Below are positions 33,771 through 41,369 of a DNA stretch of 64,000 nt, piece by piece (the stretch's first letter is position 1; every line of letters starts with the position of its first letter). The translations under genes and the position numbers were made by a program. The notes under the pieces were generated by a model. That model ran no database searches and was not told the origin of the DNA. It was given only the letters and a program-made list of their open reading frames with translations. The stretch covers positions 1 through 64,000 of the forward strand of contig JAHLKD010000118.1 in assembly GCA_025526935.1 (NCBI GenBank), written 5' to 3'. This stretch comes from Cladochytrium replicatum. Lineage: Eukaryota > Chytridiomycota > Chytridiomycetes > Cladochytriales > Cladochytriaceae.

Positions 33771-36700
33771 TTACCGAATCCTTCCATCCCTCAGCGCCCT
33801 CGCAATCATATCCGGAACCTGCCTCTCCTTCATCCTCTGAGCCCGCTCCGACCTCGCCGCCTCGCTCCACATCCTCGACCTCCCCATCGCGTCGCCACCG
33901 GCACCCCCCGCGCTCGAGATCGAGTGCCTCCGTTCCAGCACGCGTCCTTTCCGGCTCGCTTCCAGCTCGTGCAGCTCCATCCGCGCGAAATCGACGTACA
34001 TCATCTGCTGCGCGCGCTCCTCGACGTCCCGCAGTCCGCCGTGCGCGTGGTGCGAGCTCGAGGACGTCGCGGACGTGGCGGTCGTGGACGAGATCGAGCG
34101 CGCGTGGTGCGGCGCGAGGTGGCGCTGGGCCAGCGGGCCGGAGAAGAGGTCGTAGGACGGTTTGGGCGTGAGCTGCTTCCTGCGCTGCCGACGGATCTCG
34201 GCGGCCGCTATGCGTTCAAACTCAAAGCTTGTGAACGAGCGTTGCGGTTCGGGTTCTTTCTGCAGTGCCGCGGGTGCGGCTTCGGCCTCGACGAGCTGGA
34301 TCGGCGCCGTGAGCGACAGCCGTTCCTCCTCCTCTTTGAAGAACACCAATTGGGGCGCACCGCTCTCGTCGAGGATGACCGACGAGTCCGTTGGGATCGT
34401 GAGCTGATAGCGCGGCGCGTGGGATTCGACCGAGTCAGTGCGCTGCGCGTCGACCCCCCCACGCGCGCGACTCCTCGACGTGCTCCGGCTTCGGCTCCTG
34501 CTCCGCATGCGCACGACCATCTTGCTCGCAGACTCGGAGATCGTGGACGTTGTGTTGCGGAGACGGGAGAGCAGGTTCGCTAGCTGGTTCTTCTCGGGTG
34601 GGATCGTGGTGACAGTAGGCTCCTCGTCAATGTGCACGGTTCGTTGGCCGCGGGGCTCCTCGTGTGTGCGGCCGGGTGCACGTCCGCGACGACCTCGCAT
34701 GCTTGAACGGGGCTTGACGGAGGTTGCCGGTGACGACGGTGGCGGTGGAGACTTGGGGCTCTCCTCGACCACAACGACTGAGCTTGAAGATGCGTCGCGA
34801 AGCGAGCCGGGCATGGATGATGAGCGGGTGAGGACGCGAGGTGGAGAGAATTTGAGGAACGAGCGGCGGGTGCTGAGGATCGGTGAAGTCGGTGTCTGGG
34901 GAGATGCAGGAACATCTTGTGCGGCATCAGTTACGACGGTGACCTCGACGGGTTCGTCTGCTTGAGGCACCGAAAGCTCAGCAGGAGCGTCTTCGCCGAC
35001 CTAAAACGGAACACCATGAGTGAGTATAGTGGCCCAAGATACATTCTTATCAAAACGTACCGGAGCGGCCTCGACTTCCTTGTCCGCTTCAGGTACAACA
35101 GCGACTGCTTCGCTGGCAACAACCTCATCAGAGGGCGCAGAGGGTGGTTTGGACTCGGATGGCTCGACAGCCTCCACCAGTACATCGGTCGCCGCCTCAG
35201 ATGACTGCTCAGGAGTCTGCTCGACCTCCAAGGTCTCAGTCACCGGCTCAGCTTCCTCGACAACTGCAAGCGGCTCGCTCTCAACGGCCGCATCCTCAAG
35301 GCTGACCACGTCCCGCGGGGACGCCACATCCAACGAGCCCCTGCAGCTCACACCAGCCCTGACCCCCTCGCCCGCCTCCACCTCTTCAACCTCCACAAAC
35401 GACCTGACCTTCCTCACCTCCTCGTCCTCGTCCGGAAGCGGCCACACACCCGTCGAATCCGACATCCTCAGCGGATCGAGCACGCACTCTTCTTGCTCCG
35501 GGCTCGACACCGCGGGTGTCATGTACGCGCTGCTCGTCTCCTCCGAGGCCCGTGGAGCGACTTCAGAGCGTGCGACGAGCTCTTCGTCGTCTTCTTCGAT
35601 GGGGATCGAGGGGAGCTCGGCGAGAATCGGGGACTCGGTCGGTTGGGCGGCGCCGGGCTCACCGAAGAGGATGGCGGGGGCGGGGCTCTCGACACTCAGG
35701 TCGGTTGGGGTTGCGACAGGCGGTGTGTGTAGCCTGTCGTCAGAGTCGTCTGCTTGGACGGTCTCAAGGGAGGGAGAGCCGACGCCTTCGACGGATGGGG
35801 AGCCGCTTTCCTCGAGTTGCGGGGAACCGGACTCCCCGATGCCGACTTCCTCGGTCTCGAGGGAGGGAGAGCCGACACCTTGGAAGGATGGGGAGACGCT
35901 TTCCTCGAGTTGCGGGGAACCGGACTCCCCGATGACGAGTTCCTCGGTCTCGAGGATGATGCGTACTGGTTCCAGTTCAGACTCCCGTTGCTCTTCTTCC
36001 TTCTCCTCCACTCGACCGACCACCCGCTCCTTCTCTTCCTCGACGACGACGCCCACGAGCCCCAGGGGCGTCTTCACGACCGTCTTTTCATACGCCATGT
36101 CGACTCCATCGGCTTCCGTCGACTCCCTAGGCGTAAACACCGGCGTCGGCGAATCCTCAATCTCCTCCTCGTCCTCCTCCTGTTCTTCCACAGGCCTGCC
36201 ACCACTTTCCTTCAGTTCGGTCGACGACCCGCTATGTTCGCTCTCTTCCATGATGACATCCAAAGACCTCGGGCTGCCGGGAGTGTCCTCGCACATTGTG
36301 TCAGGCCTCGACGAACCAGCTTGGCTCGGCGACGGCGGGGCGGGGGTCGAGTTTCGCTTGCTGACGAGCACGGGCGAGTCGACGGGCGTGGAAGGTTCGG
36401 TCGAGTGGTGCGAGACGGGTTCGTGGAGGATGGCGTCAGCGGACGCCTTGCCGCGGATAGCGCGCCAGAGGAGCTTTGATTTCGGAGAGGCAGGCGACGA
36501 GGAGGAGGAAGATGACGCGGGGGAGGACCAGGACTTGACTTTTTCGGCACGGCGGGAAGAGGGCTGCTGGAGGAGTTCAGTTGGTGGAGAGTTGTCGATG
36601 ACATCAGTTAGCGAGTCAGGGACGACGGGGACAGACAGCGGGATGGAAGCGGAGCGTCTGCATTTCGAGAAGAGCGAGAAGATGGCGGGGATTTTTCGTT

Positions 36701-36797
36701 GCTGTTGTTGCTGTTGTTGTTGTTGTTGTTGTTGAGGGGTGGATCGTGATAGATTTGGACGCCAGGACATTCGTCTGTCAGTCGAGGAGGAGAGCAT
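33771..36797 (-). CDS. large low-complexity Ser/Pro/Glu-rich protein with polyQ tract
   Basis: Two exons (35061-36797, 33771-35000) give 988 residues. Residues 22-33 are twelve glutamines coded by mixed CAA/CAG. The middle is extremely Glu/Ser/Pro/Val-rich and contains a perfectly legible tandem duplication (about residues 306-365) of a ~31-residue unit built on GESGSPQLEES followed by GVGSPSLETE. The second exon has RS-dipeptide clusters (MRSRSRSRSTSRSRARGG), basic helix-like stretches and a C-terminal Arg-rich helix (SERAQRMKERQVPDMIARAL). No enzyme motif, signal peptide or membrane segment. It appears mostly disordered; a scaffold or cytoskeletal/cortical role is only a guess. The ATG at 36797 is favoured over an upstream frame extension because the extension has no ATG context. 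Confidence 0.75.
36703..36735 (-). repeat. CAA/CAG trinucleotide repeat (polyQ)
   Basis: Twelve consecutive Gln codons, mostly CAA with two interruptions by CAG on the coding strand. A likely site of length variation. Confidence 0.85.
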
Positions 36798-37112
36798 GGT
36801 CGGGGGAGGGAGAGCGCGAAGACACGAAACGAGCCAGAGGGAGAGCGCGCGAGACTTATACGGGTTAAATTGACGGACGAAACGAACGAAACGAGAGGAG
36901 TCCACTGCCACAGCCACCGGACAGGCACAACACCCGTCACTCTATATTAATTAATGGCTGCCGGAACATCTACCTGGCCTGGCGGCCGCACGTGCTGCTA
37001 TGCTAAACTGGCGAATGCACAAGCGAACAAGCGAACGCGTTTGCGTCTGGCCAACTGTTGCGGACAACCTTAACACCACCAAAAAACACCCCTCTGGCCA
37101 CTTCACGTCTCC

Positions 37113-40100
37113 CTATTCCGCAATCCCGCCCAGCGCTACCGATACCGGCAGCTGCTCGGCAATCTGCTTGATCGCACTCTCGTTCGTGGGACTGTCGCCC
37201 CGCGCTGTCACTAGCGAACTGTGCCTCTTCGGCGGTGGCCCGCTCGGCGCTTTGGTCTCCGCAAGCGCCCACGCCGCTCCGCTCACTTCCGACGGACTCA
37301 ACACCCCGCCGCTCTCGCTCCCGCTGCCCGTCGTCACGACGCTGGCAACACTGCCGCGGTTCCCTGCGGCCGCCGCTGCCTGCTGCGTTGGGCTGCCTCC
37401 TGACGTCGACCACCCGAGCCAGTACCGTCCCCCGACCTTGGCTACCGTCTGCGACGGTCCAGACTTGATCGCTGTGACAAGCGTCAGCGGGAACAGCCCT
37501 CGCCGTCGCCCTTGCGTGATGTTTTGTCCGCGCGCCCATCCGTCCGTGAACTCCTTCTCGACACCGATAAGGTCCCCCACCACGAGCGGAAGCTCGTCAG
37601 GGTAGATCGGCCGGTAGTTTGCAATCACAACGTGCGACGTCGGTGCCGGCGGCACGTACGCTGACAAGTCCGGAACGTCAATGTCGTCCGGAATCCCCTC
37701 GTACGGTCGACCGGGCTTCTGCCCTCCAGACTTCCTTGGAGGCTGCTCGCCAGATGTGCGTGTCTCGAACGATGACTTGAGCGCTGCGAAAGCAGAGCTG
37801 GGTGCGGGTGCAAGCGTCGTTGTCGTGCTCTTGCTCTGCTTTGAGCTACACACACACACACACACACAAACAAAATACAAATCAGCCAGATCAAAAGCGT
37901 TGCAATCTCTTAAACTCACCTCTCCATAAGCTTCTCAAGCTCGGCAGGAGTCAACTCGCTCAAATCCTTGTCCCCAAACTCGGACGGGATCGACACCCCA
38001 GATGCGTACGCGCTGATCAAACCGCTAGGGTAGCCCGTAGCTCCATCGCCCCCGCTCACCATGAACGAGTCCCGCTTCACCGCCTCAAGACCCAATGCTG
38101 TCGCAACCGGCACGTGCACCCCCACAAATACCGTTCGCAAATCCGAACCCACCGTGTATGCCTTCACAACCCTCTTTTGCCCAGTCCATCCCTTCAACAA
38201 GAGCGCCTCCTCCGCTCCTGCTTCGTCCTCAAACACGTCGTCCTGGCTCGAAATCATCCACACCTTCTTGCCAGCAGATCCCTCGAACCGCAACGCCTCC
38301 GAACCTGCAGTCACCGCGCCAACGGCCTGCCCTTCGTCCTCGTACACCGCAACCCGCTCCTCCCCAACAACCTCGTTCTTCTCGTTGTTGCGCACGATCC
38401 TGAACGTGCGCACCGCGGGAAGCTTGGCGGGAACGGTGTACGTCACCCCCGTCGTGGTCGCAACGGCCTGGTGAATCACAAGGTACCGCACAGTACCGCT
38501 CTCGTCAATGTGCTTCACGACAACCTTGCCCTGCGACCTGGCGGACAGGGTGGCTGCACCCTCGTCGGCAAAAACGTCATGCGAAGGCCACAGAACCACG
38601 TAGGCGACCTTGTCGCTAGATGTGCTGTGCGTGAGCTTCACAACAAGCGCCTCGCCGTCAATCTGCGCCGCCGCGCTCTTGGCGAGCACGTCCGTGTCAT
38701 AGATCGACACGTTCTCAGACGTCACCTGCTCGCCCTTCTCGTTTCGCTTGACAATGTTCAGGGTTCGGATTCCAGAGGGCTTGGTGGTCGTAGTGGTGGA
38801 GGAGTTCGAGCTCGACATGGAGACACCGCCGATGGCTGCGGCACCGCCAAGGATCAACTTGTCGTCGAATTCAATCTTGGACGCAACGGCAACAGGTCGG
38901 TGCAAAACAAGGTACCGGACGACGTTGTTCTCGTCAGTGTACTTGTACACCACCTTGCCCTGTTTGCGAGCCTCCGTGACGGCCTCATTCTGCTCAGAGT
39001 ACAGGTCGCCGTCCTTCACCACAATGTAGCTCAACCCGCCCGTCCGCGACATCAGCGTAACCACCTTGGTGCCAACAACTCCAGCAGCAGCAGTCGTCTT
39101 CGCAAGCTCCTCGTCTTCATAGATGCTGACTCGCTCCTCGCCAACTTGTTCGCCCTTCTCGTTCTGCTTGAGAATTCGGATAGTTCGCGTCGTCTTGACA
39201 ACAACGCCGGCTGCGGCGGCTGCGGCGGCGCTCAGGAGAACGTACTTGATCTTGCCGGATGACTCGACGATGCGAGTGACGGTGCGTCCACGGAGCTGCG
39301 CTGCAGCGGTCGCAGTACGCTCGTCTTCAAACACCTCGTTTGACTCGACGAGCACGTACATCACCTTTTGCGTCTCGCGGTTCATGATCCTGGTAACGAC
39401 CTTGCGACCTCCAGATGCGGCGGCGGCCTCAGCGGCCTCCCACTCCTCGTCAAATATGGTAACGTTCTCGAACACCTGCGATGATCCGCGACGACGGTCG
39501 GTAGAGATCTTTGTCTGCGAGACGGCGTAAGCTGCACCAGCAGCTGCGGCGGCACCTCCAGCAACGAACGCAATCTTGGATGCATCAATGTCGCTCTCAA
39601 CAACCTCGGTCTGATCAACGTGGGTGGTCTGGACAACAGGCTTGCCGGCTATGTGCTGGAGATCTTCTTCCTCCTCAATAATCTCGACCTCGTCAACCAA
39701 CATGCTTCCGCGGTTTCCGCGACCCACACCGGATCCAGAAGAGTCCGATGCCGCAACAGATGTGCGCTGTCCGGCAATCAAACCAGTCACAAGCGTTCCG
39801 ATAGTTCCCAGGAAAGTGGATTGCCGCTTCGGCTCCTCCTTAGGCTGGTTCTGCACGGTCGTCGTTGTGGTCGTGACAACTTCTGTCTCTTCGATTTCCT
39901 CCACCTCTTCCTCGGCAGATGCTTCGGCGGTGACAGCCTGGTAGCCGTAGTCCTTCTTCTCCTCCTTCTTGTGGAACGCGGCAGCGGCAGCAGCAGCAGC
40001 GGCCGCAGCAGCGGCACCGGCTCCGACCGCGATGTTCTCAGCCATCTCCCTGCTCCTTCGAGCAACGCCTGCTCCAGCGCCGGAGCCCTCGGCACCACCG

Positions 40101-41369
40101 GCGAGCGGCTCCCGACTAGGCGAACCGACGTGGGCAGGAGCAGTGGATTCGTACTCGGTGTCTGTCTTTGAAGTAGAAGCATACGCCGCAGCAGCACCTG
40201 CAGCAGAAGCAGCTGTGGCGGTTGCAACGACTTGGGCGGCATTGGACGGCATCTCGGCTGAGGGAGCGGCAGCTGGGCCGCCTGTACCTTGCAGGAGACT
40301 ATAGTTGCTGAATCGGTGGATGTTGCCGAGGGGTTGACTGGAGTCTACCTGCGGTGCTTGTTCGGGCACTTTCCCAGCAGCACCACCACCGTTCGGTCCC
40401 TGAGAGTTGTAGTGGGCAGCTGCAGCCGCTCCACCCCCAACAGCAACGGCAGCAGCAGTAGCATAGCCAGCTTCAGCAGCGGTGGCGTTGTGAGCGTACG
40501 GGGTCGGACCACCGGCGCCCGCGTAACCACTTGCGGCAGCTGGGGGAGTGGAACCATAGGCAGCCAGGGGAGCGGAACCATAGGCAGCTGGGGGAGTGGA
40601 ACCATAGGCAGCGGTGGTTGCTTCGGCCGGAGTTTTAGTGCGATTGGCACGCAGGCGCCAGACGAGAAATCCGACAGCGAGGGCCAGCACAAACAATCCA
40701 ACGGTAAGACCGACAATGAGCGGGACGTTTGCGCCACTACCAGTCACAGGCGGGATAATGGCCGCACCGGTAGGGGTCGCACCACCGCCTCCTCCTGGTG
40801 GAACTGTAACCAGAACTACGGTGGTCGTTCCGCTGATAACGGTTGTGATAGGTGTGAGAATAGGAGCAGAAGCGGTCACCAAAACGACGGTGGTTGAGCC
40901 GCTAATGACTGTGGTGATGGGCGTGAGCGGAGGGACGATAACTGGCGGAACGACGGGTACGAGCACGGTGGTTGTGGTGCCGGAGATTACAGTCGGGCTA
41001 GGAGTGAGAGGAACAACTGTGACGGTTGTTGTGCCGGAGATAACTGTTGTTATCGGAGTAACTCCAACAGCGGGAGACGTGGTCCCGCCAGAACCTCCCG
41101 GGGCTGTACCGGGAACCCCGCCGCCGCCACCTGGTGTAATCTCACCGCCGGGAGAGTAAGTGGGCGTCGTGCCTTCGACAGGAAGTGTTGGTGTAGTGGC
41201 AGGCGGTGTATATCCAGGAGTTACGCCATCACGTTCAACAACTAGACAATAGCTATTGTTAGGGCCAAGAAGTATGAGTGAGGGTGGATTGAGTCGACTT
41301 ACAGTTGAGCGGCCCGGCACGAGCAGTGGCGACGAGAGCTAGGAGGGCCAAGAGTACAGAGCGACGCAT
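37113..41369 (-). CDS. single-pass membrane protein with eight novel repeats and C-terminal SH3 domain
   Basis: Three exons (41303-41369, 37920-41241, 37113-37845) give 1373 residues. Order: signal peptide (MRRSVLLALLALVATARAG); a Thr/Pro/Gly-rich ectodomain with four TVISGTTTV-type repeats (about 85-170); one membrane helix at about 196-217 (VPLIVGLTVGLFVLALAVGF) with WRLRANR after it; a low-complexity Ala/Gly/Tyr region; then, from about residue 610 to 1090, eight ~45-residue units of pattern [VI][FY]xDExxAxxxAxxxGxxVV...YVVL arranged as four pairs; finally an SH3 domain at about 1201-1254 (VIANYRPIYPDELPLVVGD, GWARGQN, GLFPLTLV). The topology recalls fungal surface sensors that signal through an SH3 domain, but the repeats are not a domain I know. 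Function is inferred, not shown. Confidence 0.85.
37849..37868. repeat. AC/GT dinucleotide microsatellite at a splice acceptor
   Basis: About ten GT units on the coding strand end directly in the acceptor TAG of the second intron of the SH3 membrane protein gene. Confidence 0.9.

Follow-up and report, generated by a model that had tools for sequence, protein, structure and literature searches.

The window analyzed here, a stretch of 64,000 nucleotides from the chytrid Cladochytrium replicatum (GenBank assembly GCA_025526935.1, contig JAHLKD010000118.1, positions 1 to 64,000 of the forward strand), carries a minus-strand gene at 41369-37113 that is predicted to code for a single-pass membrane protein with a cytosolic SH3 domain. 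We found that the segment between the predicted membrane helix and the SH3 domain contains eight homologous units, arranged as four copies of a candidate domain for which no relative was recognized. Chytrid relatives that share an extended SH3 cassette with this protein carry a different segment in the same position, a result beyond those anticipated in an earlier note on this DNA. The protein may be read as a Fus1-like membrane-SH3 adaptor, with a cytosolic middle that appears to vary between lineages.

A four-copy domain array

The earlier note had described an eight-copy repeat in four odd/even pairs at 37920-39500, and all eight units were recovered: residues 616-656, 658-694, 727-766, 768-805, 867-908, 911-947, 986-1022 and 1024-1067 (39463-38108, minus strand), with lengths of 37-44 residues as cut here. 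That span holds all the repeats, and its part from 37920 to 38098 lies beyond the last pair. All eight units and their order are still legible. The pairs, of about 100 residues each, comprise pair 1 (units 1 and 2; residues 610-697; 39218-39481), pair 2 (units 3 and 4; residues 707-808; 38885-39190), pair 3 (units 5 and 6; residues 847-951; 38456-38770) and pair 4 (units 7 and 8; residues 966-1070; 38099-38413), all on the minus strand and separated by linkers of 9, 38 and 14 residues. Unit 7 is the weakest-scoring of all. The repeats had been taken for the cytosolic part as such; they are real, but the block (610-1070) accounts for only 461 of the 1155 cytosolic residues.

The homology of the pairs is clear: all six pair-to-pair local alignments scored above every one of 500 shuffles, z being lowest for pairs 1 and 4 (6.0) and highest for pairs 2 and 3 (33.2). 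Identity is 23-46% across five comparisons, pairs 2 and 3 standing at 46%. Within classes, four of six odd-odd and five of six even-even comparisons beat all 200 shuffles. Between odd and even units the joint score was 520 versus 323 +/- 18 in shuffles and was reached by none of 500. Among the 16 single odd-even comparisons, the observed score was attained by no more than 2 of 200 shuffles in eight and by 4 to 11 in three more, while u3-u4, u3-u8, u4-u5, u4-u7 and u5-u8 were chance-like (36 to 92 of 200). The doubled nature of the pair is hence well supported jointly, though not for each odd-even combination. A hidden Markov model (HMM) of the unit detects all eight in the protein, having been built from the same units, and a motif fitted to them post hoc occurs 8 times, whereas 1000 shuffled versions of the cytosolic part gave 0.17 on average and never more than 2. 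Synonymous differences between pairs (0.61-0.78) exceed nonsynonymous ones (0.41-0.50) in all six comparisons, as expected for a constrained protein, the synonymous values being near saturation. The shuffles and the motif count, together with the assembly search reported below, argue firmly that the repeat stems neither from chance nor from low-complexity sequence.

AlphaFold2 models of pair 2 (me8cca18121ef) and pair 3 (ma7a081af2959), both obtained from an alignment of the same four sequences, display the same β-β-α-β-β-α-β-β order of elements, with a predicted local distance difference test (pLDDT) score of 79 and 80, respectively. The pair is accordingly predicted to be a compact fold rather than disordered, as the earlier note had asked a structure prediction to decide. 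Each copy of the domain would consist of two related β-α-β-β units; three copies (pairs 2-4) would carry a further hairpin at the N-terminus, which pair 1 lacks.

The repeat in a single gene

Searches of the repeat block and the four pairs against Pfam-A gave nothing near a cut-off (best E 0.23, 11.4 bits against 30), nor did those of the pairs against NCBIfam (best E 0.0078, 14.8 bits against 600), and the repeats matched no sequence in the PDB, where one chain at E 1.6 is a designed protein. The initial impression that the repeats match no known domain therefore survives these searches.

In a six-frame search of the 50.5 Mb C. replicatum assembly, pair 2 retrieved at E <= 1, apart from itself, nothing but pairs 1, 3 and 4 (E 4.4e-19, 1.5e-6 and 1.2e-5). 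The whole block likewise found only itself and one chance-level match (E 0.84), with no second copy; these searches score first-look candidates only (two for the block, four for pair 2), and a highly diverged copy could escape them. Among proteins, the block as query matched none at E <= 1 in 7998 scored candidates. A relative of the repeat could still sit in another long protein, because these candidates were only about 256-815 residues long. When the whole protein served as query and residues 605-1260 were scored, with query words spread across the repeats and the SH3 domain, seven of 7981 candidates matched, all of them SH3-bearing relatives. The protein set searched may lack chytrid proteomes near C. 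replicatum.

Finally, hmmsearch with all filters off found no trace of the repeat in the nine relatives described below (lowest full-sequence E 0.64 with the pair model and 0.15 with the unit model). None of the searches made gave a sign of the repeat outside this gene. The earlier expectation of a new domain family recurring in other chytrid proteins is so far not supported, as neither the nine relatives nor any further gene in the assembly yielded a match. Given this absence, it is best described as a new-looking domain in one gene and not yet as a family.

The extended SH3 cassette

The SH3 domain (residues 1201-1258) scores above the cut-offs of three Pfam families, namely SH3_9 (E 6.8e-9, 35.9 bits against 30), SH3_2 (E 2.4e-6, 27.6 bits against 21.8) and SH3_1 (E 1.1e-5, 25.4 bits against 22.9). 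It had been placed at the C-terminus, and here the assignment holds but the position does not, as about 115 residues follow it. The domain is embedded in an extended cassette (37398-37706, minus strand), in which it is preceded by PDLSAYVPPAPTSHVV and followed by KSGPSQTVAKVGG, and the window protein shows the cassette signature PDLSAYxPPAPTSHV ... GDLxGxE ... DGWARGQNIT ... SGPSQ. Over 82 residues, 49-62 are identical to those of the nine relatives. SGPSQ and PP[AP]P, the latter directly upstream of the SH3 domain, occur in all ten proteins, PP[AP]P having been part of the pattern with which the cassettes were cut out. An intramolecular contact between PP[AP]P and the SH3 domain is a matter of speculation.

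In the cassette alignment three positions of the SH3 binding face are kept in all ten proteins: the first Tyr/Phe, the Trp of DGW and the Pro of FP/VP. Of the aromatic residues expected on the proline-binding face of a classical SH3 domain, the one in the window protein lacks two: the second Tyr of ALYDY and the Tyr of SNYV are replaced. This loss would lower the case for PxxP binding while leaving the SH3 assignment intact.

The SH3_1 profile matches 93 stretches of the same assembly at E <= 0.001, several of them clustered on contigs C82, C93, C81 and C129. Highly similar SH3 stretches lie on the contig pairs C10/C26, C7/C20, C16/C21 and C82/C130 (loci L010-L038), which would fit separate assembly of two haplotypes or of a duplicated genome; for the gene studied here no second copy was found. 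A paralogue pair on contigs C10 (L011, 1-1890) and C26 carries a weaker form of the cassette, EPDLMVQVHGQSTDYVV ... ARGQNVSKSRRRGVFPLPVLSAIRSGPS, apparently interrupted by an intron within the SH3 domain.

Chytrid relatives and their cytosolic middle

The nine relatives (P0001-P0009) represent eight species, which fall into seven genera: Borealophlyctis, Rhizophlyctis, Blyttiomyces, Irineochytrium, Geranomyces, Polychytrium and Phlyctochytrium. Seven of the species were looked up and are all Chytridiomycetes, Geranomyces michiganensis standing outside that count. They were collected by two whole-protein searches, the one described above and one scoring residues 1177-1285, which returned five of 94 candidates (cassette E 9.7e-42 to 2.0e-24), two of them new. 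The adaptor part of the original proposal fits this cassette, common to seven genera, with the proviso that the relatives were found through the cassette itself.

Beyond the cassette, seven of the nine (P0001, P0003 and P0005-P0009) show a strong transmembrane-like peak ahead of a long tail. P0002 has no hydropathy peak above 1.9 and P0004, by eye, starts at a hydrophobic stretch; both models may be N-terminally shortened. The VISG motif of the window protein's stalk (four copies) recurs twice in the Polychytrium relative, and its cytosolic motif LGNIHRFSNY (residues 327-336; 40301-40330, minus strand) has counterparts in the two Rhizophlyctidales, LGNIHKFNNF in Rhizophlyctis and LGKIHKFNFT in Borealophlyctis.

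What lies between helix and cassette is another matter. This slot measures 583 to 1494 amino acids among the seven relatives whose transmembrane peak is clear. Borealophlyctis P0001 fills it with 14 copies (residues 1015-1874) and Rhizophlyctis P0002 with 13 copies (residues 547-1537) of a GYLTYxEW unit of about 52 residues (GAVLVPGVGYLTYEEWLKHHNKP...), a model of which found nothing in the other eight proteins, the window protein included. Two Pfam families score above cut-off in these proteins, DUF1244 in P0001 and MitoNEET_N in P0002, but the best stretch in each case covers only about 20-25 residues of one copy. In Polychytrium P0008 a TVITRRKRVLADGTIEE unit occurs four times, and the remaining eight relatives lack this motif; the models of the window repeat found nothing in P0008, whose repeat was compared by those hmmsearch runs only. 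BLAST of pieces of the region ahead of the cassette against one another detected repeats in the window protein and in P0001, P0002 and P0008; Geranomyces P0005 and P0006 showed a minor repeat, whereas P0003, P0004, P0007 and P0009 showed none. Homology of the window repeat with the GYLTYxEW unit was not found, the profile comparison being empty, and wherever the middle segments of the window protein and its relatives were compared (hhalign, hmmsearch, profile comparison) no similarity emerged. The relatives thus appear to have in common a frame of stalk, helix and SH3 cassette, but not the middle.

A possible reading, which we put forward with reserve, is that of a chytrid surface-adaptor family whose middle has been refilled independently in different lineages with unrelated new tandem domains, the window array being one such birth. 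If true, these proteins would offer a natural series in which domains were born repeatedly at a single fixed position.

Gene model and neighborhood

The strand reads as a predicted three-exon gene with GT-AG borders, and the putative splicing joins 41369-41303, 41241-37920 and 37845-37113 into a single open frame that reproduces the 1373 residues given in the earlier note. Exon 1 contributes the start codon and the putative signal peptide MRRSVLLALLALVATARA (residues 1-18, recognized by eye), with its donor GTAAGT at 41302. Exon 2, fully open between an AG acceptor and a GTGAGT donor, codes for the stalk, the transmembrane helix, a cytosolic linker and all the repeats. Exon 3, with its acceptor after a TG run, supplies the remaining linker, the SH3 cassette, the tail and the stop codon.

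The predicted extracellular stalk (residues 19-195, the first of them in exon 1; 40724-41241, minus strand) is rich in Thr and Pro (T 23%, P 16%, S 6%). It features four VISG[ST] motifs, with VISG at residues 89, 107, 134 and 157, and residues 1-195 contain no N-glycosylation sequon. There is no cysteine in the stalk or in the whole 1373-residue protein. The predicted helix (residues about 196-218; 40655-40723, minus strand) gives the sole hydropathy peak above 1.9 in the protein (2.73 at residue 198). The signal peptide and single helix first noted both reappear. An Ala/Gly-rich stretch separates the helix from the repeats, which are followed by a linker, the SH3 domain and a low-complexity tail.

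Antisense to the repeats runs an open frame of 486 codons (37802-39262, plus strand), probably a by-product of the codon bias of the coding strand. The protein encoded by a neighboring minus-strand frame (35001-36917) is acidic and of low complexity; it contains a poly-Gln run as well as a GESGSPQLEESxSPS stretch that is repeated, and has no Pfam match at E <= 0.001.

Possible roles of the array

Our favored account, held tentatively and at somewhat less than even confidence, is that a four-copy domain array has been set between membrane and SH3 domain as a multivalent platform, with the SH3 domain recruiting a partner. The array would provide multivalent binding or self-association and so cluster the protein at the cell cortex, at sites that contacts between stalk and wall may set. 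The atypical SH3 domain could recruit a conserved partner; that end of the protein would then keep a fixed partner, with the middle tuning clustering or reach. We infer this link to wall or polarity, the clustering and the recruitment of a partner.

Several points weigh against this account. First, ordinary PxxP binding is not assured, because two aromatic positions of the SH3 face are lost. Second, the surface location is a reading of the sequence. Third, only one gene, in one assembly, has yielded the repeat, too narrow a basis to gauge its conservation between species. Fourth, AlphaFold2 had only four sequences as input, and its five models spanned pLDDT values of 62.2-80.2 (pair 3) and 73.0-78.5 (pair 2); the predicted template modeling scores of 0.64 (pair 3) and 0.59 (pair 2) leave the placement of the two halves relative to each other uncertain. 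Fifth, a tree of 29 rows (the window protein, the nine relatives, 18 of 30 SH3 loci and the C10 paralogue) leaves 18 of its 26 inner branches open, and with them the orthology of the relatives; because of this, the kinship of the nine rests on the cassette and the SH3 flanks.

The array might instead be a passive spacer: folded beads on flexible linkers that distance the SH3 domain from the membrane with no specific partner, in a slot that takes any tandem repeat that arises. The varied fillings of that slot in the relatives (GYLTYxEW, TVITRRKRVLADGTIEE, a minor repeat or none detected), the empty comparison of the window repeat with the GYLTYxEW profile and the wide range of slot lengths are all in its favor. 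However, the pairs share a core and a uniform predicted fold despite their divergence, more than a spacer would require, and synonymous change exceeds nonsynonymous change between them. We rate the passive spacer somewhat below the platform.

It is less probable still that the pair belongs to a known alpha/beta superfamily as a remote, unrecognized member, with doubled β-α-β-β units of the SPOR or another ferredoxin-like kind whose sequence similarity has been lost. SPOR domains bind cell-wall glycan in bacteria. Half of a pair model could be aligned with the SPOR domain of RlpA (PDB 6i05), but with a Z tied with that of an unrelated fold; SPOR gave no Pfam match to the repeats, which are predicted to be cytosolic, and comparison of the predicted pairs with solved structures gave no convincing fold match.

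Quite improbable is a single origin of the slot, with an ancestral region diverged past recognition and the differing repeats being local amplifications of its different pieces: Geranomyces and Phlyctochytrium do have before the cassette a stretch, DEVVTVVDERTGHVLDKKTVTVTQYEGD, that by eye resembles the N-terminal hairpin of pairs 2-4, and 16 columns aligned by hhalign share its register, but the profile-profile comparison (probability 0.3%, E 0.23) yielded no homology, and the filter-free hmmsearch of the nine relatives found neither pair nor unit.

If the pairs fold as predicted, a small domain without a recognized relative has been multiplied by duplication inside a single gene. Because the middle of this membrane-SH3 frame differs between genera, one can examine whether arrays of this sort serve as functional platforms or are spacers that may be exchanged for one another.

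Comparison with known systems

As far as titles and the beginnings of abstracts tell, with most subscription journals outside the coverage, we found no literature on SH3 membrane proteins of chytrids, and the available parts of a survey that includes one chytrid proteome (PMC4102429) do not name such proteins. The closest working parallel is Fus1, a one-pass protein with an SH3 domain and O-glycosylation, the likeness being one of description and not of compared sequences. Fus1 is a cell-fusion membrane protein with the SH3 domain in its cytosolic part; it is about a third of the size of the window protein and is not known to carry a tandem domain array. Sho1, a second point of reference, is not known to have a long stalk. 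In Saccharomyces cerevisiae, Fus1 is described as an O-glycosylated single-pass protein of the plasma membrane, and the budding yeast FUS genes as having no orthologues in fission yeast (PMC3718343). Sho1 has four membrane-spanning segments and a C-terminal SH3 domain at the plasma membrane, where it forms complexes with the highly O-glycosylated single-pass proteins Msb2, Hkr1 and Opy2 (PMC8533825). Thus, whereas the SH3 domain and the glycosylated part reside in separate proteins in the Sho1 system, the window protein appears to combine stalk and SH3 domain in one single-pass chain.
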